NCBI GenBank assembly: GCA_018698975.1
Contig: JABIPQ010000032.1
Coordinates: 1 to 39,987, forward strand
Source: Gammaproteobacteria bacterium
GTDB lineage: Bacteria; Pseudomonadota; Gammaproteobacteria; Pseudomonadales; Pseudohongiellaceae
Direction: 5' to 3'
DNA: 39,987 nucleotides
Program-made: the position numbers and the translations under genes
In this document: in pieces, positions 82-39,987 of the stretch
How positions within the stretch are numbered: the first letter of the stretch is position 1
Layout of the letters: each line of letters opens with the position of its first letter
The notes under the pieces: generated by a model
The model's input: the letters and a program-made list of their open reading frames with translations, nothing else
Database searches by the model: none
Told to the model about the DNA's origin: nothing

Positions 82-429
82 TTATAGCACTTGTGCTGCT
101 TTTTCACGCATCTGAGCCAGCAAGCCAGGGTCTTTACGCCAGATTCCCCATTGTTGGGCATTGTTCCCGCTGCTGGCTTCTGGTGAGGCCAAAGCCGCAA
201 TGTATTGAACTGGTATGCGCTGAAACCTTGGGCGTTGTTCAGCGGCAAAAACAGTGGGTATTAATGACCTGGGTGTTAGTGCTGCCAAAGAAGCGCCTGC
301 GCCAATGCCAAGCCCATAGTTAAGTATTGAACGACGTTTTAAAATTCTATCGCGAATTTTTATGGAGGATTGGCGAATTCCTTTAGTGGACTGCTTTTTC
401 CTGGTCATGATTTTCTTCCTGAACGACAT
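82..429 (-). CDS. Short Tat-signal protein, probably truncated
   Basis: The 115-residue product has a twin-arginine leader (basic N-terminus, RR followed by a Gly/Ala-rich hydrophobic stretch and a VFAAEQ cleavage-like site), so it is probably exported folded. The mature part is only about 50 residues. Its stretch FQRIPVQYIAALASPEASSG followed by NNAQQWGIWRKDPG resembles, from memory, the N-terminus of a larger family of about 200-residue Tat proteins of unknown function in which DPG is followed by many more residues. Here a stop follows soon after DPG, which suggests loss of the C-terminal part. An internal Met at residue 8 is an alternative start. It is the last gene of the minus-strand ankyrin/DUF1592/DUF1552 operon, 76 bases beyond the DUF1552 stop. 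Function unknown. Confidence 0.55.
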   Translation of the reverse strand: MSFRKKIMTRKKQSTKGIRQSSIKIRDRILKRRSILNYGLGIGAGASLAALTPRSLIPTVFAAEQRPRFQRIPVQYIAALASPEASSGNNAQQWGIWRKDPGLLAQMREKAAQVL

Positions 430-505: not shown

Positions 506-1831
506 CTATAAAGTCACATAACCGTCACTGTCGCCAAAGCTTTCCTGTTCAATATCCAGCAAGTGAAGCATGGATACCAGTAGATTGGACATGGTGGTTT
601 TGTCCGGATTCATGATGTGACGGTTGCCTTCCAGTCTGCCAGAGGCACCACCTGCCAGAATAACTGGCAGAGGGTCATGGTTATGGGAGTTGCCATCGCT
701 CATACCGCTGCCATAAAGGATCATTGAGTTATCCAGCAGGTTGCCATCGCCATCAGGAGTGGCTTTGAGTTTGTCCATGAAATAGGCGAGCAGGCCAACA
801 TGGTAGCGATTGAGTACGGCAAAACGGGCCTTTTGTTCTTCATTCTGGGAATGATGAGACAGGGTATGGAAACCGTCTCTGACGCCGCTGGCGGGATATA
901 CCGCACCACTGAGTTCCTTGGCCATCAGGAAGGTGGAAACACGTGAAATCTCGGTCTGCCAGGCCAGTACCTGTAAGTCATACATAAGCTTGATGTGCTC
1001 ATCAACGTTCGACGGGATGCCATTTGGCTTATCGGGAACAGCAATATCATCGCTCAACTTTTCACCCGCCTGAACAATACGGCGTTCAATTTCGCGGATA
1101 TCAGTCAGGAATTGTTCCAGCCTGATTTTATCGCCTGCAGGTAAGGAGCGGTTTAAAGAAGAGAGCTGATCTGATATGGCATCAAGCAGACTCAGTGATT
1201 GTTTGCGTCTGGCTTCGCGCAGTTCGGGAGTAGCGCCGTCACCAAATAAATGCTCAAACACTACCTGGGGATTATTCTGCATCGGCAAGGGGCTTACATC
1301 TGACTGCCAGGAAATGGTGTTGCGATAAGCGCAGCTCAGCCCTTCGCCGCAGCTGAGTGTGGCTTCTTCAATGGTTAACTCCAGAGACGGTAAAGGAGTG
1401 TCCTGGTGCAAGTGCTGGGCGATCATCTGGTCAATGGTGACACCAAGCATTGGTGAGGCGCCTGACTGGGGTTTTGCGCCACTTAAAAATGTTGCTGCTG
1501 AACGATTATGGTTCGCAGTGGCACCACCTGGACCATAGGCCAGAGGCAGTCCCAGTCCGGAGATAACGTTCACCCGTTCACGAAAAGCTTCAAGAGGTTT
1601 GAGGATTTCCGTAAATTCAAAATTTTTGCCGGTTGTGGCCGGAGTCCAGCGGGACATGGTAGCGCCATGGGGAGTATAAATAGCCCCGAAGCGTGTTTTT
1701 GGTAAAGCACCTTGTGCCAGGGCAGTGCCAGCCGGAAGCATCGATTCCAGAAAAGGCAGTGTCAGTGTCGTGCCGGTTCCACGCAGAAATGTTCTGCGTG
1801 AAAGATGCTTCTTGGTGATATAGGTTGCCAT
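506..1831 (-). CDS. Tat-exported DUF1552 protein
   Basis: The 441-residue protein starts with a Tat leader (SRRTFLRG, R12-R13, then a hydrophobic stretch ending ALAQG). The body matches the DUF1552 family: the GAIYTPHGATMSRWTP segment, the conserved CGEGLSC...NTISW segment whose cysteines could form a disulfide in the periplasm, an SGMSDGNSHNHDPLPVILAG segment and the C-terminal SMLHLLDIEQESFGDSDG. No function has been established for the family; it almost always sits beside DUF1592 cytochrome-like genes, as here. The start lies one base after the stop of the DUF1592 gene and its ribosome binding site (GGAGG) lies inside that gene's last codons, so the two are translationally coupled. A second copy is at 38386-39735. 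Confidence 0.92.
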   Translation of the reverse strand: MATYITKKHLSRRTFLRGTGTTLTLPFLESMLPAGTALAQGALPKTRFGAIYTPHGATMSRWTPATTGKNFEFTEILKPLEAFRERVNVISGLGLPLAYGPGGATANHNRSAATFLSGAKPQSGASPMLGVTIDQMIAQHLHQDTPLPSLELTIEEATLSCGEGLSCAYRNTISWQSDVSPLPMQNNPQVVFEHLFGDGATPELREARRKQSLSLLDAISDQLSSLNRSLPAGDKIRLEQFLTDIREIERRIVQAGEKLSDDIAVPDKPNGIPSNVDEHIKLMYDLQVLAWQTEISRVSTFLMAKELSGAVYPASGVRDGFHTLSHHSQNEEQKARFAVLNRYHVGLLAYFMDKLKATPDGDGNLLDNSMILYGSGMSDGNSHNHDPLPVILAGGASGRLEGNRHIMNPDKTTMSNLLVSMLHLLDIEQESFGDSDGYVTL

Positions 1832-1832
1832 A

Positions 1833-4151
1833 TCAGGCCTCCGGAGTGTTATTTGCCTGGCCGTTATTTCGATCAGCCACTTCTTCCAAACCTTCGCTAC
1901 CGCTTTTAACTCTCTTGTTAAACTGATCGCTGTTGATAATACCTTTTACCAGCGCTGAAAAACGATAATCATTTTCTTCAGCATGTCTAATAATAGAACG
2001 AACAGTCGGCATATCAAAGTATTCAAGTTCCCTGCCCAGGGCATAAGTCATTAGTTTTTCAGTCATCGTCTCAACAAATAATTCGGAGTACCCGATCAGC
2101 GCATTACGTAAATCTGCTGGCCCACTGAGTTTCGAGCCGTTCAGCAAAATACCACTGGGATCTACTTTTGAGTCACCATCGTATTCACGCCATTGCCCCA
2201 CTAAATCAAAATTCTCCAGAGCAAAGCCTACCGGGTCGATTACTGCATGACAGGATGCGCAAACAGGATCTGCACGGTGGGCTTCAAGCCTTTCTCGCAC
2301 TGAGGTAGTGATTACTGTACTGCCATCGCCATCAAGGTTGGTTTCCACACCGGGAGGCGGTGCCGGTACTGGCGCACTAAGCAGGTTTTCCAGAATCCAG
2401 CTGCCCCTGACAACAGGAGAAGTACGACTTGCTGTTGAGGTCACTGTCAGGATACTGCCATGTCCCAGCAAACCACGTCTTGGACTGTCATCAGCTAGTT
2501 GAACTTTTCTGAAATAGGAACCTTTGACCCCCTCAATATCATAATGCTTGGCCAGTTTTTCATTAAGGAAAGTGTAGTTAGCATCAAGCAGCTGTGTAAC
2601 CGGAATGTCTTCGCTAATCATATTGGCAATCGCCAGCTGGGTTTCCTGAATAAAAGCAGCTCTTAGATTGTCGTCAAAATTTCCTTCTTCCGGAGTCACT
2701 GTTTCTACATCACGAAGAAACAGCCATTGCCCGGCAAAGTTTTCCACCAATGCTCTGGCTTTGCCATCACGCAGCATTCGTGTGGCCTGTTGTTCAAGTA
2801 TTCCAGGTTGGCTGAGCTCATTATTTATTGCCAGCTCCAGCAATTCTGCATCGGGAATGCTGCTCCACAGGAAAAAGGACAGGCGTGATGCAAGCTCCAG
2901 ATCATTGATCGTGTAGATTTCACCTGGCGCTAAATTTTCCGGTTCTTCTTCAAAACGGACCAGAAAGCGGGGGTCGATAAGAATGCGGGACAGGGCTTGC
3001 TGCACACCGGCTTCAAAATTATCTTCCCGGTATCCTTGCTGGTAAAAGGTCATAATTGCTTCAACGTCACTGTTTGTTACGGGAGCCCGGAAGGCCCTTG
3101 TGGCCACATCTTCTACAATCTGTTCAGCACAGGCGGTTTCTTCATCATTACTGGTCGGGTAGCAGCTAAAAACCAACTCACGACTGGGGGTGTTGCCGGG
3201 GCCAGTTGCATCATAAGGACCGATTATTTCGATACGGTTGATTCCTCCGCCGACAGAATAATTATTATAAATATCATTCACTCCGGCGGGCTGAACATTG
3301 TCGATAATGGCTGCCGTAATTGTGTGAGGCCCGGCGCTCAGGGGAACACGGTTAATTCTTTGGCCTTCCAACATGACCGGGATGCCATCAATAGTTACAT
3401 CAATACTGATATCTGGCCTGGCAGAAAAACCAAAAGAGCGGCCACCAGTGATGGCGATATCATATTGGGCATCGAGGGGAAAATTATGAGTGATTTTCAT
3501 GCCGCCCCGAGTACCCAGTGGCAAGCCATCTATATGTTTATCCTGGGCCAGATCTGGTGGTGGTAAATAGGCGGTTGAGAATTCTGTAGTGGTGGCATCA
3601 CCCACTGCCCAGCGACTGATTTTCATCGCTGTTGAGGCATAGGCCTGAACCAGTGCCGGTGAAAAGCCGAGAGAGGAGGCAACATTGTCAAAACCGCCGC
3701 TGGAATTATCCCTGGGCAACATGGTGCTGACATCGATATCCAGTGCCAGCAAATCGCGAATGGCGTTCGCATATTCGGTCCTGTTCAGGCGATGCAGGGA
3801 TGGTGATGCCGGGATGGTTTCAATGTTATTGTCGAGCTGTTCAGCAATCTGCCTGGTAAAGTTTTTTATGGCATTGCTGTCCGGGCGCTCTTCTCCGACA
3901 GGAGGCATCATCCCTATACGGATTTTTTTGATCATCAATTCCCAGGCTTCAGGATCAGTATCGACATGATCGAAATCGAGGCCTTCCATATCGAGACTGC
4001 CAGCCCAGTCTTCAAAGTTATGACACTTCAGGCAATACTGATCAATAAATTCAGGGACATTCTGGGCCTGTACTGGCATGCAAAAAATGCCGAGCATTCC
4101 GGGAATGCCTATCAATTTATGTAATTTTCTCATTGAAAACAGTTCAGTCAT
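1833..4151 (-). CDS. DUF1592-type diheme cytochrome-like secreted protein
   Basis: The 772-residue protein has a Sec signal peptide (cleavage near VQAQ; the Met at residue 7 is an equally plausible start). It has the domain run typical of DUF1587/DUF1592/DUF1588/DUF1585/DUF1595 proteins, often annotated planctomycete-type cytochrome c. A first haem c motif CLKCH is at residues 40-44 with a downstream MMPP methionine candidate, followed by LHRLNRTEYANAIRDLL, a central carbohydrate-binding-like section with TRGGM, then LASRLSFFLWSSIPD, and a second haem motif CASCH at 631-635 inside DPVCASCHAVIDPVGFALEN. The protein is probably periplasmic or surface exposed and redox active. It lies between the ankyrin gene (39-base gap) and the coupled DUF1552 gene. 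The substrate and partner are unknown. Confidence 0.92.
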   Translation of the reverse strand: MTELFSMRKLHKLIGIPGMLGIFCMPVQAQNVPEFIDQYCLKCHNFEDWAGSLDMEGLDFDHVDTDPEAWELMIKKIRIGMMPPVGEERPDSNAIKNFTRQIAEQLDNNIETIPASPSLHRLNRTEYANAIRDLLALDIDVSTMLPRDNSSGGFDNVASSLGFSPALVQAYASTAMKISRWAVGDATTTEFSTAYLPPPDLAQDKHIDGLPLGTRGGMKITHNFPLDAQYDIAITGGRSFGFSARPDISIDVTIDGIPVMLEGQRINRVPLSAGPHTITAAIIDNVQPAGVNDIYNNYSVGGGINRIEIIGPYDATGPGNTPSRELVFSCYPTSNDEETACAEQIVEDVATRAFRAPVTNSDVEAIMTFYQQGYREDNFEAGVQQALSRILIDPRFLVRFEEEPENLAPGEIYTINDLELASRLSFFLWSSIPDAELLELAINNELSQPGILEQQATRMLRDGKARALVENFAGQWLFLRDVETVTPEEGNFDDNLRAAFIQETQLAIANMISEDIPVTQLLDANYTFLNEKLAKHYDIEGVKGSYFRKVQLADDSPRRGLLGHGSILTVTSTASRTSPVVRGSWILENLLSAPVPAPPPGVETNLDGDGSTVITTSVRERLEAHRADPVCASCHAVIDPVGFALENFDLVGQWREYDGDSKVDPSGILLNGSKLSGPADLRNALIGYSELFVETMTEKLMTYALGRELEYFDMPTVRSIIRHAEENDYRFSALVKGIINSDQFNKRVKSGSEGLEEVADRNNGQANNTPEA

Positions 4152-4190
4152 TATATTTTTTTAAAAACTCTCTTTTGCCCTTTGCAGAGT

Positions 4191-5753
4191 TTACCTGACA
4201 GGTAAGCCTTGCTCTTCCAACAGGCTTGAAATCAGTGCCATTGATTCCGGTTTTTCCTCTGATGGATGCGTTGCGAGGAAGACTCCTCTGGCCCATACAA
4301 GGGGCGAGCGATCTTCGTTGTCCACGACATCAAGCCGTGCACCATGATCTACAAGCAATTGAATGATATCGTTGGAGCCGCGATTTGCGGCGCCATGTAT
4401 GGCAGCAAGACCCATGGAATTGGCGTGATTAATATCCATACCCAGATCAATGCAAAACTGCACAGCAGCCAGTAATTGTTCTGCACTTTCAGTCCAGGTT
4501 TGCGCGACTACCCAGTTGATGCCTGCAGCAGCCATCAGGGCATTTGTGCCGGCAAATGTTTCTATATAAGGATCAGCGCCATTTTCGAGGAGCAGATTCA
4601 TCACATCCATATCTCCGGCGCGCGCTGCTCGAAGAAAAGCTGTTTGTCCGGTGAAATCTACCCATTCCAGAGTGCCTGTAATACTAAGCAGGTCATACCT
4701 GATTGGAGGTGATTCTTTGGTACGCGCATTCAGGTCAGCGCCTTCTTCAATCAGCGTTTCAATCAGATTAAAAATTTCATCACGGTTGGCAATGTAATTG
4801 CTGAATTTATCATTATGGATATAAAGGTTGCGGACATTAACGGCTTCCCAAAGGGGAGTGCGACCGTACCAGTCCACCGAATTAACATCAGCTCCCTGTG
4901 CAATCAGGTAATGCGCCGTTTCCATACTGTTGGTTTCAACAGCCATTAACAGCGGGCTTATATTATTGGCTTCGGCTTTATGGATGTCAGCGCCTGCTTC
5001 CAGCAAGAGTTTGGCGATATCGGTATGCCCCTGGCGTGCCGCATACAATAATGGCGTCATTCCGCCAGGTATAGGCTCTCGTCGCCCACGATCAGCAGGT
5101 GTGCCGCCGCGAATGATGCCAATACCGAAACCGAATCCACGCTGGGAATTAGGACCAACCCATGGTGGGGTTTTGCCAATGGTTGTGGCGACATTGGGAT
5201 CTGTGCCTTTCTCAAGCAGGTAGTCAACAATCAGCGGGTGGCCTGCTCTGGCAGCAAACATTAAGGGGGTCTGACCAAAAGACCTGTCACGAGCATTCAC
5301 ATCTGCGCCGTTCTCAACCAATAACTTAACAGTTTCAAAATTGCCCACATCTGCAGCGCTCATCAAGACCGACTGAGCATTATGTTCCAGTGTGTTTGGG
5401 TCGGCGCCGGCATCAAGAAGCAGGCGCACCATGTCAGGATCTCCATTGCTGACAGCCAGACTCATTGGCGTGACACCATAGCGGTTAGTCTGATTTACAT
5501 CGGCGCCAGCACTCAGTAAAAGCAGGGCATTTTCCTGATCATTTACCCTGATAAGCCAGTGCAAGGCTGGCGTATCGAACTGACCAGTAATATTTGGATC
5601 AGCGCCTTGTGCAAGGAGTTGTTTGAGCAGCCCGCTATCTTGGGCCATGGCAGCTTCAGGCAGTGATAACTGCGCATGGGCTGATATGGCCGTTAAGCCA
5701 GTGAGCAGACTGGATAGGACAAGGACAAGACCTTTCTGATGTATTGCTTTCAT
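4191..5753 (-). CDS. Secreted ankyrin-repeat protein
   Basis: The 520-residue product begins with a Sec signal peptide ending SAHAQ, so the ankyrin array is exported. About eleven repeats of the type TPLxxAxxxGxxxxxxLLxxGADxN run from about residue 35 to the C-terminus, with irregular insertions: a glycine-rich loop after the fifth repeat (GFGFGIGIIRGG) and longer linkers in the seventh to ninth. Ankyrin arrays bind proteins; no catalytic domain is visible. It is the first gene of the operon leading into DUF1592 and DUF1552, and a similar secreted ankyrin protein begins at 39818 next to the second DUF1592/DUF1552 pair, so its partner is probably one of those proteins. That role is inferred from context. 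Confidence 0.93.
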   Translation of the reverse strand: MKAIHQKGLVLVLSSLLTGLTAISAHAQLSLPEAAMAQDSGLLKQLLAQGADPNITGQFDTPALHWLIRVNDQENALLLLSAGADVNQTNRYGVTPMSLAVSNGDPDMVRLLLDAGADPNTLEHNAQSVLMSAADVGNFETVKLLVENGADVNARDRSFGQTPLMFAARAGHPLIVDYLLEKGTDPNVATTIGKTPPWVGPNSQRGFGFGIGIIRGGTPADRGRREPIPGGMTPLLYAARQGHTDIAKLLLEAGADIHKAEANNISPLLMAVETNSMETAHYLIAQGADVNSVDWYGRTPLWEAVNVRNLYIHNDKFSNYIANRDEIFNLIETLIEEGADLNARTKESPPIRYDLLSITGTLEWVDFTGQTAFLRAARAGDMDVMNLLLENGADPYIETFAGTNALMAAAGINWVVAQTWTESAEQLLAAVQFCIDLGMDINHANSMGLAAIHGAANRGSNDIIQLLVDHGARLDVVDNEDRSPLVWARGVFLATHPSEEKPESMALISSLLEEQGLPVR

Positions 5754-35507: not shown

Positions 35508-35995
35508 ATTGAATAAAAGTCATAATTAACAAGGTGTTATATATTTTTTGCAATCGAATTTTGCAGTTTATGTGCGCAAAAAGGAATAAAAGCATTGTCA
35601 AATAATATGTAAGTCACATCCAAAGCCAAGGGATTGATCAATACGGCATTTAATTTATTCTCTATATCGAATGTGTCCGTGTCCGAATTTGATCTCGAGA
35701 TTTTTAACTGATAATTGAAGCTTCAGGCTGCGCCAGCTAAATTATTCCCTGAACATGGCGTATACTCGGATAAAGTTGCGTTATTGCAAGAGCTTTAATG
35801 GGTTGTATTTTCACATTTTTTTGCACAATAGAGTAAACTTTTGGATAAAAAAACACGTAAAATAGTAAGTCGATCATAATTGATTGCTTGTATTAAAATT
35901 GAGTAAAATTCGATAGTAAAAGTTCAAGACTATATTAATCAAAAAGTGAGTAATCGCCTTTCTTACTGAGCGATAAGCGAACTTTGGAGGGATAT
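35508..35995. other. 488-base AT-rich region upstream of the second DUF1592 gene
   Basis: No gene is seen. The last 150 bases are very AT-rich and repeat the motif GTAAA(A) at least five times (near 35833, 35858, 35866, 35906 and 35917), twice beside TCGAT. This may be a regulatory region or simply low complexity. Its length and the change of expression unit suggest the DUF1592 set has its own promoter here. Confidence 0.35.
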
Positions 35996-38368
35996 GTGAA
36001 TACCAGATTAACCCAGGCAGCCATGTTGGCATTAATTTTCTCGCTTGTACCGGTTTTACCAGTGCTGGCTCAGTCTGTTGCAGAGGATTTTAATGCCGAT
36101 CAAAGTCGTGCGCTTGTCAATCAATACTGCGTTCTCTGCCATAATCCAAATGGCCCTGCTCAGGCAACAGGACTGTTCTTTGATCAGGTTGATATTGGCA
36201 GTTTGTCGGATCATGCCGAGTCCGCAGAAACAGTTATTCGAAAATTGCGCGCCGGATTAATGCCTCCATATCCATTTCCCCGCCCGGAACAAGATAAGCT
36301 CGATGCCATGATTTCCTGGCTTGAAGGAGAAGTTGATCGCAAAGCTGAAACCTTTCTCCCTCCTCCTGGCTTGCATCGTCTCAATCGAACTGAATATACA
36401 AATGCGATCCGGGATATGCTGTCTCTGAATATAGATGCCAATACATTCCTTCCCCCTGATGATTCCAGCCATGGCTTTGATAATATGGCCGGAACTTTAA
36501 CTTCATCACCTGCGTTGATGGAAGCCTATTTATCGGCAGCCGGCAAGATCAGTCGCCTGGCGATAGGCACCGAGACAGCTCCAACGCTTGCTGTGTTCGA
36601 TGTGCCGGTTGATACATCTCAAAACAATCATATTGAAGGTTTGCCTTTTGGTACTCGTGGCGGCATGTTAATTGAGCACGAATTTCCTGCCGACGGTGAA
36701 TATGTGTTCACTGTTAAAGGAATGACAGGTTACTTCACGCGCGTTCTTGGTAACGTGGCTGGTGAAAAGCTGGAAGTCACTATCGATGGCGAGCGCATGT
36801 ATCTCTACGACTGGGATGAAGAGATCGGCAATCAGGAAGGCAATGGTGGTCGTACGCCAGCCATTCCTATCAAGGCAGGCTTCCATAAGGTCGGAGTCAC
36901 TTTTATTGCTACTAGCGATTTGCCTGATGTTGGATTGAACAAATCCTTTGTTCGTACCATGAATTCTCCAGGCTCAATTTCTGGTTATACTTTTTATCCC
37001 CATGTTGGGCAGGTTTTTATAGAAGGTCCGTATAACGGTTCACCGGCTACTATTACCCAGAGCCGAGACAAGATCTTTGAATGCATTCCGCAGAATATTA
37101 GCCAGGAAGCCAATTGCGCCACCCAGATTATTAAAACCTTGGCAGGCAAAGCATTTAGACGTCCCACAACTGATGCTGATGTTGATGTAATGATGGAATT
37201 TTTCCGCATTGGGCGTGAAGAGGGCGGTAGCTTTGATTACGGTATTGAAGGCGCCTTGCAGCGTATTCTGGTGGACCCGGAGTTTATCTATCGTGCTGAG
37301 ATCGCACCGGTTGGAGCCCCTGAGGATTCCCCATATCTGATTAGTGATCTTGAGCTGGCTTCACGTCTGTCATTCTTTCTTTGGAGCTCCATTCCAGATG
37401 AAGAACTGATCGAGATTGCTTCACAAGGCCGCCTTCATGAAAGTGAGGTGCTACGTGAACAGGTTCAGAGAATGATGGCTGATCCTCGTTCCAGTGCCTT
37501 CGTGGAAAACTTCACTGGGCAGTGGTTGAATGTACGCGGCATGGCCGCCAGCGAGCCAGTGGTAGATCTATTCCCTGACTTTGACTCAACCCTTCGAGAT
37601 GCCTTCCGTCAAGAAATTGAAATGTTCTTTGGTAGTGTGATAAATGAAGACCGCAGTATTCTCGATTTGCTGACGGCTGATTACACCTTCGTTAATGAAC
37701 GACTCGCCAGACATTATGGTATACCTGATGTATATGGTTCTCAGTTCCGACGTGTGGAACTGGAAGATGATTTAGACATGAGGCGAGGTCTGCTTGGGAA
37801 AGGTGCTTTGTTAACTATTACCTCTGATGCCGCACGTACTTCACCCGTTAAACGGGGTAAGTGGTACCTTGAGACATTCATGGGCGTCAGTCCTCCTGAT
37901 CCTCCCCCAGGCGTTGAGACAGATTTGACACCTAAAGAAGGGGCTGCTCCAACTACTCTGAGAGCCCGACTTGAGGCGCATCGCGCTAACCCTGTTTGTG
38001 CTTCATGCCATACTATTTTCGAACCGATGGGTATCGCACTGGAAAACTTCAATGCTGTTGGAGAGTGGCGCACAATTGACAATGGTAATCCTGTTGACCC
38101 AACAGGTTTTGCTCCTGATGGATCACGTCTGGAGGGTGTAAAAACCTTACGTGAACTCACGGTGCGTCATGGTGATCAGTTCGCCGAGGTGGTGACAGAA
38201 AAATTATTGACCTATGCATTGGGTCGCGGTGTTGAGTTCCAGGATATGCCGATGTTGAGATCGATTACGCGAAGCGCTGAAGATGATGATTTTAGATTTT
38301 CATCTCTGGTTATGGGTGTTATTAGAAGCCCTGCTTTCACCATGAATTTAAAAACCTCTAGTCTTTGA
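35996..38368 (+). CDS. DUF1592-type diheme cytochrome-like secreted protein, second copy
   Basis: The start is set at GTG 35996, which has GGAGG six bases upstream; this gives 790 residues (the frame is open to a TTG 12 bases earlier). The signal peptide ends LPVLAQ. Haem c motifs are CVLCH at residues 45-49, with LMPPYPFP downstream, and CASCH at 668-672 in NPVCASCHTIFEPMGIALENFN. Between them are LHRLNRTEYTNAIRDMLSL, GLPFGTRGGM and LASRLSFFLWSSIPDEELIE, the DUF1587/1595/1592/1588/1585 run. It is a clear paralogue of 1833-4151 and probably a periplasmic redox protein. It is followed after 17 bases by its DUF1552 partner. Confidence 0.92.
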   Translation: MNTRLTQAAMLALIFSLVPVLPVLAQSVAEDFNADQSRALVNQYCVLCHNPNGPAQATGLFFDQVDIGSLSDHAESAETVIRKLRAGLMPPYPFPRPEQDKLDAMISWLEGEVDRKAETFLPPPGLHRLNRTEYTNAIRDMLSLNIDANTFLPPDDSSHGFDNMAGTLTSSPALMEAYLSAAGKISRLAIGTETAPTLAVFDVPVDTSQNNHIEGLPFGTRGGMLIEHEFPADGEYVFTVKGMTGYFTRVLGNVAGEKLEVTIDGERMYLYDWDEEIGNQEGNGGRTPAIPIKAGFHKVGVTFIATSDLPDVGLNKSFVRTMNSPGSISGYTFYPHVGQVFIEGPYNGSPATITQSRDKIFECIPQNISQEANCATQIIKTLAGKAFRRPTTDADVDVMMEFFRIGREEGGSFDYGIEGALQRILVDPEFIYRAEIAPVGAPEDSPYLISDLELASRLSFFLWSSIPDEELIEIASQGRLHESEVLREQVQRMMADPRSSAFVENFTGQWLNVRGMAASEPVVDLFPDFDSTLRDAFRQEIEMFFGSVINEDRSILDLLTADYTFVNERLARHYGIPDVYGSQFRRVELEDDLDMRRGLLGKGALLTITSDAARTSPVKRGKWYLETFMGVSPPDPPPGVETDLTPKEGAAPTTLRARLEAHRANPVCASCHTIFEPMGIALENFNAVGEWRTIDNGNPVDPTGFAPDGSRLEGVKTLRELTVRHGDQFAEVVTEKLLTYALGRGVEFQDMPMLRSITRSAEDDDFRFSSLVMGVIRSPAFTMNLKTSSL

Positions 38369-38385: not shown

Positions 38386-39735
38386 ATGATAATTACTAAA
38401 AAGCATATTACAAGGCGTGCAATGCTCAGAGGAACTGGCACCACACTTGCGCTGCCGTTGCTTGATGCAATGATACCTGCAGCAACTGCATTGGCGCAGA
38501 CAGCTGCGGTTCCCCCTCAGCGATTCTTTGGCGGCTTTGTTCCTCATGGTGCTGCGCCGGGTTATTGGGTTCCGGAGAAAGAAGGCGCATTGCCGGAAGA
38601 ACTTCCATTTATCTGGAAAGCTTTGGAGCCTTATCGGGACAGCCTGAATATCTTATCTGGCCTGCATTCAACATCCGCAGAGCCGCCTCCTGGCGAAACT
38701 GGTGCCGACCATTGGGTCGCGGCCGCGTTTCTTTGTGCTGATAAGCCAAGGAAAACTGCTGGTGCCGATGTTTATGCCGGACAAACTATCGATCAGATCA
38801 TTGCTGAAAAAATTGGCCAGGAATCACTTTTACCGTCAATGGAAATATCGGTTGAGGATCCAGGTTCAGGCTCAAGCAACTGTGGAGAGGGTTATAGTTG
38901 TGTGTATACCAACACCATTTCCTGGGCTTCACCTACGACACCACTGCCGATGGAGCTAAATCCACAAGTTGTATTCGAACGCATGTTTGGTAGCGGAAGC
39001 TCGCCTGAACAGCGTGCAGAACGTCGCGAACGTAACCAAAGTATTCTGGATTCGATCACTGGAAAAATATCTGATCTTCGCAAAGAGATCAGCGTACCTG
39101 ATCGTTCACGTCTTGATAGTTTTACCGAGAATGTACGTGAGATTGAGCGACGTCTGGAAATCGCATCCAGTGCAACCACCGCTGCGCCTGAAGATTTTGA
39201 TGTGCCCCCAGGTATTCCGCAGTCTTTTGATGAACATATCAAACTGATGTTCGATCTGCAGACTTTGGCTTATCAGGCAGATATCACGCGTGTAGGCACA
39301 ATGCTGTTTGCACGTGATCTTACCGGTCGTGTTTATCCGGAAAGTGATGCGCCTACACTAGGCTTCCATGGCGGATCGCATCATGGTGAGGATCCAGGTC
39401 GTATAGATGAGTTCTCCAAGATCAACCAGTATCACGTCAAAATGCTGGCATATTTTGTCGACAAGTTGGCAAATACTGAAGACGGCAATGGCTCGCTGCT
39501 TGATCATTCATTACTCCTTTACGGCAGCAACATGGGTAATCCAAACCAGCATCTGCATTACGATGTGCCACACGTTATTCTTGGTGGTAACAACGGCAGG
39601 ATGCAGGGCGGACGCCATATTGCCTATCCGACAAAGACGGTTCCAACAGGGAATTTATTGTTAAGCCTGCTGGATCAATTCGATATCCATCGCGAAAGCT
39701 TTGGTGATAGTACGGGTCGTTTGGAGAACCTGTAG
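38386..39735 (+). CDS. Tat-exported DUF1552 protein, second copy
   Basis: The 449-residue protein begins ITRRAMLRGTGTTLALPLLD (R10-R11), a Tat leader almost identical in style to the copy at 506-1831, with cleavage near ALAQ. It keeps the family marks FVPHGAAPGYWVP, NCGEGYSCVYTNTISW, SFDEHIKLMFDLQTLAYQADITR, LYGSNMGNPNQHLHYDVPHVILGG and the C-terminal FDIHRESFGDSTGRLENL. GAGGAG lies upstream of the ATG. It is presumably exported folded, beside its DUF1592 partner. Biochemical role unknown. A partial ankyrin gene follows after 82 bases. Confidence 0.92.
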   Translation: MIITKKHITRRAMLRGTGTTLALPLLDAMIPAATALAQTAAVPPQRFFGGFVPHGAAPGYWVPEKEGALPEELPFIWKALEPYRDSLNILSGLHSTSAEPPPGETGADHWVAAAFLCADKPRKTAGADVYAGQTIDQIIAEKIGQESLLPSMEISVEDPGSGSSNCGEGYSCVYTNTISWASPTTPLPMELNPQVVFERMFGSGSSPEQRAERRERNQSILDSITGKISDLRKEISVPDRSRLDSFTENVREIERRLEIASSATTAAPEDFDVPPGIPQSFDEHIKLMFDLQTLAYQADITRVGTMLFARDLTGRVYPESDAPTLGFHGGSHHGEDPGRIDEFSKINQYHVKMLAYFVDKLANTEDGNGSLLDHSLLLYGSNMGNPNQHLHYDVPHVILGGNNGRMQGGRHIAYPTKTVPTGNLLLSLLDQFDIHRESFGDSTGRLENL

Positions 39736-39817: not shown

Positions 39818-39987
39818 ATGTTCAGAATTAGAGAATTAAAAATAGTCGCGGGAATTTTGATACTCGCGTTCTCAAATTTTGCGCTTGCACAGTCTGACAT
39901 AGCGGATGCCGCTATGGAGCGCAATGAGGATCTGGTACGTATTCTTCTAGAGGATGGCGCTGATGTAAATGCAGTGCAATCTGACGG
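39818..39987 (+). CDS. Secreted ankyrin-repeat protein, N-terminal part
   Basis: The gene runs off the window; 56 codons are visible. The start ATG at 39818 has AAGGA upstream (an in-frame ATG at 39797 is also possible). A signal peptide (IVAGILILAFSNFALAQ) is followed by DAAMERNEDLVRILLEDGAD and VNAVQSDG, the first ankyrin repeat. The beginning parallels the secreted ankyrin protein at 4191-5753, which also reads AAM... shortly after the cleavage site. It completes the second DUF1592/DUF1552/ankyrin set, here in a different order. Confidence 0.85.
   Translation, partial: MFRIRELKIVAGILILAFSNFALAQSDIADAAMERNEDLVRILLEDGADVNAVQSD

Follow-up and report, generated by a model that had tools for sequence, protein, structure and literature searches.

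An exported ankyrin-repeat protein as a probable third partner of one clade of DUF1592/DUF1552 gene pairs

The window analysed here is a stretch of 39,987 nucleotides that makes up the whole of contig JABIPQ010000032.1 (C135) in the draft genome of a gammaproteobacterium of the family Pseudohongiellaceae (assembly GCA_018698975.1). At each end it carries a set of three genes, encoding an ankyrin-repeat protein, a DUF1592 protein and a DUF1552 protein. In the left set, on the minus strand, the ankyrin gene comes first (5753-4191; 520 amino acids), followed by the DUF1592 gene (4151-1833; 772 amino acids) and the DUF1552 (HXXSHH) gene (1831-506; 441 amino acids, with a twin-arginine start). The right set, on the plus strand, begins with the DUF1592 gene (35996-38368; 790 amino acids from the ATG at 35996, with an alternative TTG at 35984) and continues with the DUF1552 gene (38386-39735; 449 amino acids, again with a twin-arginine start) and the beginning of an ankyrin gene (about 39818-39987; 56 codons including the first repeat), which is cut at the window end, the remainder being unassembled. 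Pfam supports these assignments. All five families PF07626, PF07637, PF07631, PF07627 and PF07624 exceed their curated cut-offs in both DUF1592 proteins, in the domain order PSD3-PSD5-PSD4-PSCyt3-PSD2. PF07586 does so in both DUF1552 proteins (E 2.2e-84 and 4.4e-78), each of which contains the HxxSHH motif, and Ank, Ank_2, Ank_3, Ank_4 and Ank_5 all pass for the ankyrin gene at 4191-5753. Both DUF1592 proteins and both ankyrin genes begin with a Sec-like signal, export signals being called here by a simple hydrophobicity and motif rule and not by a trained predictor, and each DUF1592 protein has two CxxCH motifs. An earlier note, made from the sequence alone, had read two different gene orders on opposite strands, CxxCH motifs in the DUF1592 proteins and separate export routes, Sec-like for the DUF1592 and ankyrin proteins and twin-arginine translocation (Tat)-like for DUF1552; coordinates, Pfam matches and the signal rule bear this description out. 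Judging by these matches, the two sets are copies of one repeated three-gene module.

The rest of the draft genome (2.79 Mb) contains further copies. In total there are 16 DUF1552 and 17 DUF1592 matches, together with 18 ankyrin genes, a count that comes from manual grouping of 86 matches and excludes the cut gene of the window. Sixteen DUF1552 genes in 2.8 Mb is a large investment for a small genome. Gene maps and six-frame profiles place an ankyrin gene adjoining, or one gene away from, every DUF1552 gene that is uncut by a contig end (15/15), always on the same strand. It lies downstream of DUF1552 in 12 of these sets and upstream in three, namely the left set of the window and those on contigs C86 and C129. 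Fourteen of the 18 ankyrin genes belong to DUF1552 sets; the others are one on C106 whose neighbour is a DUF1552 fragment at the end of the contig, two in tandem on C86 whose 5' ends lie at the contig end, and one solitary gene on C104. A DUF1592 gene stands alone on C12, another on C130 is spread over two frames with no adjoining DUF1552 or ankyrin gene, and the set on C111 lacks DUF1592, having only DUF1552 and ankyrin.

Few genomes of the phylum sample have DUF1552: it was found in 6 of 299, the source genome included. The genus of the source genome has 12-17 matches in each of six genomes and one sister genus has 14 and 19, while the remaining searched members of the family have 0-4. Among 40 regions from relatives, all 30 scorable canonical DUF1592 loci have an ankyrin gene; these regions are a selection that covers G303 almost whole, 5 of the 14 sites of G310, and none from G315 or G299-G302. 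Two other DUF1592 types in the relatives have no ankyrin gene: a short type (about 550 amino acids) and a giant type (1590-2154 amino acids), the latter with DUF1552 present. Farther afield, we assembled a broad set from the best 80 of 582 confirmed stretches found with DUF1592 profile A1, mostly acidobacterial by label. Here an ankyrin gene lies within 3.5 kb of DUF1592 in 73 of the 75 loci with enough flank (14 more were unscorable): 52 are downstream on the same strand, 15 upstream and divergent, five upstream on the same strand and one downstream on the opposite strand. Because profile A1 was built only from ankyrin-linked DUF1592 proteins, this fraction overstates the family-wide rate, which we corrected using whole genomes and 60 further regions.

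Two chromosome-level genomes allowed the association to be counted in both directions. In a Vicinamibacterales genome (G331, OY282382.1), with 39 DUF1592 matches, 40 DUF1552 matches and 36 long-type ankyrin genes, an ankyrin gene lies within 6 kb of 32/40 DUF1552 genes and of 32/35 that are paired with a listed DUF1592 gene. Conversely, 31/36 long-type ankyrin genes are near a set, compared with 3.5 expected at random and a maximum of 11 in 2000 placements. The corresponding counts for an uncultured Pseudohongiella (G335, OX638378.1) are 9/13 DUF1552 genes, 9/10 paired ones and 9/9 long-type ankyrin genes (random 0.25, maximum 3). The DUF1592 lists used for pairing held 36 of 39 matches in the first genome and 10 of 13 in the second, and one second piece of an ankyrin open reading frame was omitted from the whole-genome ankyrin count (41/42). 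The shorter ankyrin matches counted in these genomes, 14 in all, are each over 30 kb from any set. Multiplication of the pair is common: nine of the 12 genomes searched have between 10 and 39 DUF1592 matches each. In Novosphingobium sediminis NBRC 106119 a single DUF1592 match is followed by DUF1552 and ankyrin genes. The long-type ankyrin (above 340 bits) was not seen in the 248 other genomes of the phylum sample, with up to six candidates scored per genome and a limit too high for the more diverged ankyrins in sets of the L124-L131 type (155-224 bits against an own-genome profile). On gene content, the module is kept together in several bacterial phyla.

Several observations weigh against a general partnership. 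The 60 further regions covered 12/12 and 8/17 DUF1552 sites of genomes G326 and G327, and 16/17, 14/20 and 6/10 DUF1592 sites of G329, G330 and G332; three more came from G331 and one from G335, picked for absence of an ankyrin gene in the whole-genome test. Scorable DUF1592-DUF1552 loci in the fetched regions divide into those that have ankyrin and those that lack it as 6 and 2 in G329, 3 and 8 in G330, 1 and 1 in G332, 1 and 11 in G326, and 1 and 5 in G327. Two lone DUF1552 genes in the relatives (L107, L109) also lack an ankyrin gene, as do, within the set limit, six DUF1552-bearing members of the ankyrin-linked clade described below. Two planctomycete genomes with 12 and 17 DUF1552 matches have one long-type ankyrin gene each, which in both cases sits beside a DUF1592-DUF1552 pair.

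The distribution becomes simpler on a tree. We collected 197 DUF1592 loci, of which 126 have an ankyrin gene, 46 have none and 25 are unscorable. Five repeats and three giant-type rows (L102, L103 and L118, all without ankyrin) were removed, and a FastTree tree was built from the remaining 189 rows, with long branches flagged. All 122 ankyrin-linked rows fall in one clade with a local support of 100. This clade contains 12 ankyrin-free rows, and all 30 scorable rows outside it are ankyrin-free. The ankyrin label requires 13 changes on the tree versus 37.3 in shuffles (0/500 as low). Read most simply, the tree has an ankyrin gene recruited a single time by a DUF1592-DUF1552 pair that already existed, then passed down with that pair and later lost in places. 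The ankyrin link is, by this tree, limited to one DUF1592/DUF1552 clade and is not a property of the families at large.

Within this clade, the ankyrin gene follows DUF1552. It is present at 119/125 loci with DUF1552 and at 1/7 loci without it (Fisher 9.5e-7), in a comparison restricted to rows of at least 800 bits, without two that lie outside the clade, and in which L180 was set by hand to DUF1552 present. The exception, L140, has an ankyrin gene with no DUF1552 seen and lies at a contig end; its DUF1552 gene may be out of sight, and the ankyrin gene seen there may be part of the neighbouring set. Among 12 independent pairs on the tree that differ in ankyrin, DUF1552 differs in the same direction in six, in the opposite direction in none and not at all in six (independent-pairs test, median p 0.031, range to 0.125). 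In two similar loci from two species (L074, L095), DUF1552 and ankyrin are kept without DUF1592. Because ankyrin presence follows DUF1552 in gene content, DUF1552, rather than DUF1592, is the likelier protein for ankyrin to act on.

The three families also diverge together. Their protein distances correlate across 11 of the genome's own paralog sets (r 0.84, 0.83 and 0.75; 0/5000 shuffles as high), 38 own-family sets (r 0.81-0.83) and 79 broad sets (r 0.77, 0.80 and 0.64; 0/2000 shuffles as high), with shuffles that do not remove shared ancestry. Ankyrin diverges fastest, with a median corrected distance among own paralogs of 1.43 versus 1.05 and 1.02. Incongruence among the families, which the earlier note had named as evidence against a joint role, did not occur, as judged by distance matrices with no formal tree-congruence test. 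Nor did the other outcome that it had named, a lack of enrichment of exported ankyrin genes beside DUF1592/DUF1552 pairs. Its central proposal, that ankyrin is a third component, divides: linkage, changed gene order, co-divergence and correlated absence give it strong support as a real third component within one clade, and the planctomycetes speak against extending it to the families at large. The functional complex that it pictured, with ankyrin as an exported scaffold, is a possible arrangement of the three products.

What might DUF1552 do? Its AlphaFold2 model (mean predicted local distance difference test score, pLDDT, 84; predicted template modelling score, pTM, 0.87) matches the alkaline-phosphatase/sulfatase fold (Foldseek E down to 1.1e-5), and alignment to phosphodiesterases and sulfatases gives VIA Z of about 17 over some 240-270 residues. 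Members of this superfamily bind two metals through Asp ligands and use Ser, Thr or Cys as the nucleophile. At what we take to be the position of the usual first-strand Asp, DUF1552 has P-N/H-G, which suggests that the classic two-metal Asp/nucleophile site is not conserved. Four histidines, His108, His322, His326 and His383, are conserved in 124/124 ankyrin-linked and 29/29 other DUF1552 proteins, a count that left out giants and short pieces. Judging by their order and spacing, an HxxxH followed by a late His, they may form one of the superfamily's metal sites in a histidine version. The protein has no CxxCH motif, and R12 and R13 are invariant in 50/50 aligned sequences (motif only). A search for solved structures related by sequence found none for DUF1552 or DUF1592, and NCBIfam gave no family for either and only sub-cut-off matches for ankyrin. 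As a separate observation, the DUF1552 gene at L180:8722-10018 is split over two frames.

The DUF1592 protein encoded at 1833-4151 consists of a Sec-like signal, a cytochrome c-like N-terminal part, DUF1587, a sandwich domain (188-316), DUF1595, DUF1592, DUF1588 with the second CxxCH, and DUF1585. Its haem motifs are at residues 40-44 and 631-635. Both of these and Met82 are invariant in 50/50 aligned rows, and Met82 could be an axial ligand to the first haem. In the predicted structure (pLDDT 87, pTM 0.89), the sandwich domain weakly resembles carbohydrate-binding modules (CBMs), with CBM36 and CBM35 as its best rows (VIA Z 8.0-7.4; the best with 99 residues at a root-mean-square deviation of 3.3). 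CBM60 passes its cut-off at the sandwich position in an ankyrin-free relative (L223:7974-9971, uncultured Pseudohongiella). Among 14 own paralogs, the sandwich stretch has the lowest identity of the domains (31% versus 41-56%), lower values occurring only in the signal and a short C-terminal tail. For the helical part (about 320-745), there was no clear PDB match among the listed matches from the full-protein model.

Two gene families recur beside the sets. Genes for exported-looking proteins with a metallo-beta-lactamase fold (about 310 amino acids) form a cluster found at most three genes from a set in 20/61 own-genome and relative loci and farther away in two; examples are L065:11986-12963, L068:6133-7050, L073:4634-5686, L074:6064-7005 and L078:8600-9535, among others. 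A quinoprotein cluster (beta-propeller dehydrogenases, mostly with CxxCH) is near a set in 11 of these loci and farther away in five, for example at L066:13857-15698, L075:6535-8640, L076:8585-10672 and L078:697-2886. Four metallo-beta-lactamase-fold genes and one quinoprotein were checked with Pfam or NCBIfam; the three metallo-beta-lactamase-fold neighbours scanned with NCBIfam fell far under every cut-off. In three alphaproteobacterial sets, a metallo-beta-lactamase-fold gene directly follows the ankyrin gene (L128:15049-15900, L129:14632-15492, L131:13004-13855), and these three are unmatched by the own-family profile. Because the fold includes lactonases and oxidised sugars give lactones, a fair guess, and no more, is that the route would combine dehydrogenation with lactone opening.

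Taken together, these findings make it probable, in our view, that the ankyrin protein has a working role in the DUF1592/DUF1552 system. The reading that we favour, with about even confidence, is of an exported oxidative and perhaps carbohydrate-linked module in which the ankyrin protein serves DUF1552. DUF1552 would be a metalloprotein that is exported folded, by the Tat route, and whose alkaline-phosphatase-like fold contains a histidine site. The ankyrin solenoid would bind it and stabilise, load or position it. Through its sandwich domain, the DUF1592 cytochrome would direct the module to its substrate, a glycan or something similar, and it would link the reaction to the respiratory chain by electron transfer. 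Since the paralogs diverge most in the sandwich domain, the sets may differ in substrate, each serving a different one. Details of several kinds count against this picture. Among giant-type DUF1552 proteins, two of three depart from the four-histidine pattern, L118 with a gap at His108 and L103 with its late His one column off. Unrelated sandwiches (a collagen-binding domain and TNF and C1q heads) also reach a VIA Z of about 7, and sequence searches for CBM families found no match in sets of 50 and of 10 ankyrin-type DUF1592 proteins. In the broad set, the metallo-beta-lactamase-fold profile is found within 3 kb in 4/80 loci and the quinoprotein in 16/80; both neighbour families are frequent only in the source genome's own family.

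The ankyrin protein could act instead as a cofactor-loading or activating factor and not as a lasting structural part, which is unlikely in our view and yet the alternative that deserves most weight. It has a precedent in Pseudomonas aeruginosa, where the periplasmic ankyrin protein AnkB, encoded beside a haem enzyme, is needed for full activity of the catalase KatB, probably because it lets the enzyme bind haem (PMC2830190 and PMC7567364, citing Howell 2000 and Flint 2015). In the window, too, an exported ankyrin protein is encoded beside exported redox proteins. Here, however, ankyrin tracks DUF1552, which lacks CxxCH, and is absent at 6/7 DUF1592 loci without DUF1552. In addition, cells attach c-type haem with a general-purpose system. 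A metal-loading role of the ankyrin protein for DUF1552 is possible. A second alternative, which we regard as improbable, is linkage without joint function, in which the operon spreads by duplication and horizontal transfer and ankyrin has a separate role in the envelope. The presence of the module in several phyla, with mixed gene orders and orientations, would fit such spread, as would the finding that own-family DUF1592 proteins are not monophyletic (the smallest clade holding all 39 has 137 rows), a pattern expected from transfer or old duplications. Against this, the linkage persists while order and strand change, ankyrin goes missing together with DUF1552 in separate lineages, and the phylum-sample search for the long type, described above, turned up none elsewhere. 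Least probable of all is that ankyrin is a substrate receptor or surface adhesin holding what DUF1592-DUF1552 act on: it looks exported and diverges fastest of the three, but a candidate binding domain is already present in DUF1592, the usual ligands of ankyrin repeats are proteins, and ankyrin absence follows DUF1552 absence.

Our favoured reading, in which ankyrin serves DUF1552 within an oxidative module, can be pushed further, to a version that we consider doubtful. The sets would then represent a new class of exported oxidative glycan-processing machine, in which a two-haem, substrate-binding cytochrome works with an unrecognised four-histidine metalloenzyme of alkaline-phosphatase fold, a dedicated, once-recruited ankyrin protein matures or holds that enzyme, and about 12 to 40 substrate-specific copies are present per genome. 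If true, this would be a redox counterpart of the SusCD-type polysaccharide systems. A near-constant third partner that tracks DUF1552 offers a handle on function, through binding, maturation and genetics in single-copy hosts.

A few further observations concern individual loci. Downstream of the left set of the window lies an open reading frame (82-429, minus strand; 115 amino acids) with a Tat-like start and no Pfam match. The Bryobacterales genome G329 has five DUF1592 genes (L204, L208, L209, L210 and L211) with no DUF1552 or ankyrin gene nearby and a sixth, partial DUF1592 match (L219), as well as complete sets elsewhere. Genome G337 (L135, L182), labelled Acidimicrobiia/actinobacterial, has 33 DUF1592 matches, and its label may be wrong. 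DUF1552 open reading frames of 967-1261 amino acids in the high-GC loci L142, L185 and L186 looked like natural gene fusions; six-frame profiles show DUF1592 and DUF1552 in separate frames there, so we rejected fusion and regard these as merely long open frames.

How does the module compare with known systems? PSCyt1/PSCyt2-PSD1 (DUF1549/DUF1553) genes pair with DUF1501 as a parallel exported cytochrome set that also occurs in many copies, with 66 and 98 DUF1553 matches in the two planctomycetes that have one long-type ankyrin gene each. These are other families than those of the window module, and the five set proteins of the window gave no DUF1549/DUF1553 or DUF1501 Pfam match at E 0.001. 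Modelled DUF1552 shares its fold with the alkaline phosphatase/sulfatase superfamily (VIA Z of about 17) and appears to differ from it at the sequence level, in the P-N/H-G that replaces the first-strand Asp and in the four conserved histidines. The likeness to AnkB-KatB is that an exported ankyrin protein is encoded beside an exported redox enzyme; the difference is that the partner of AnkB is a catalase. The left ankyrin gene is flanked by the DUF1592 gene and an HxlR-type regulator, and no catalase is among the 14 window proteins scanned with Pfam. Cbp2D of Cellvibrio japonicus is a multidomain protein with c-type cytochrome domains, annotated with DUF1587, whose X183 domain is able to pass electrons on to lytic polysaccharide monooxygenases (PMC8981238); the main text of that paper does not contain the words ankyrin, DUF1592 or DUF1588. 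We take the giant DUF1592 proteins to be of the Cbp2D type by size only.

A further precedent is the work of He et al. (2017, PMC5615132) on Verrucomicrobia, whose PSCyt3/PSD proteins have the same kind of domains as the window DUF1592 proteins. According to that paper, PSCyt3 genes usually adjoin a family of unknown genes, some PSCyt genes carry carbohydrate-binding modules, and nothing was known as of 2017 about the function of the PSCyt genes and their neighbours. We infer that one of the two families concerned is DUF1552, a name that does not occur in the main text; nor does the main text mention ankyrin, which is near-constant within the clade described here. DUF1592/DUF1552 pairs have multiplied in several environmental phyla. 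Our literature searches, which covered open-licence PMC text, turned up no paper on the ankyrin partner. The module is a variant of an already known but uncharacterised gene pair, set apart by an ankyrin partner that is near-constant within one clade.

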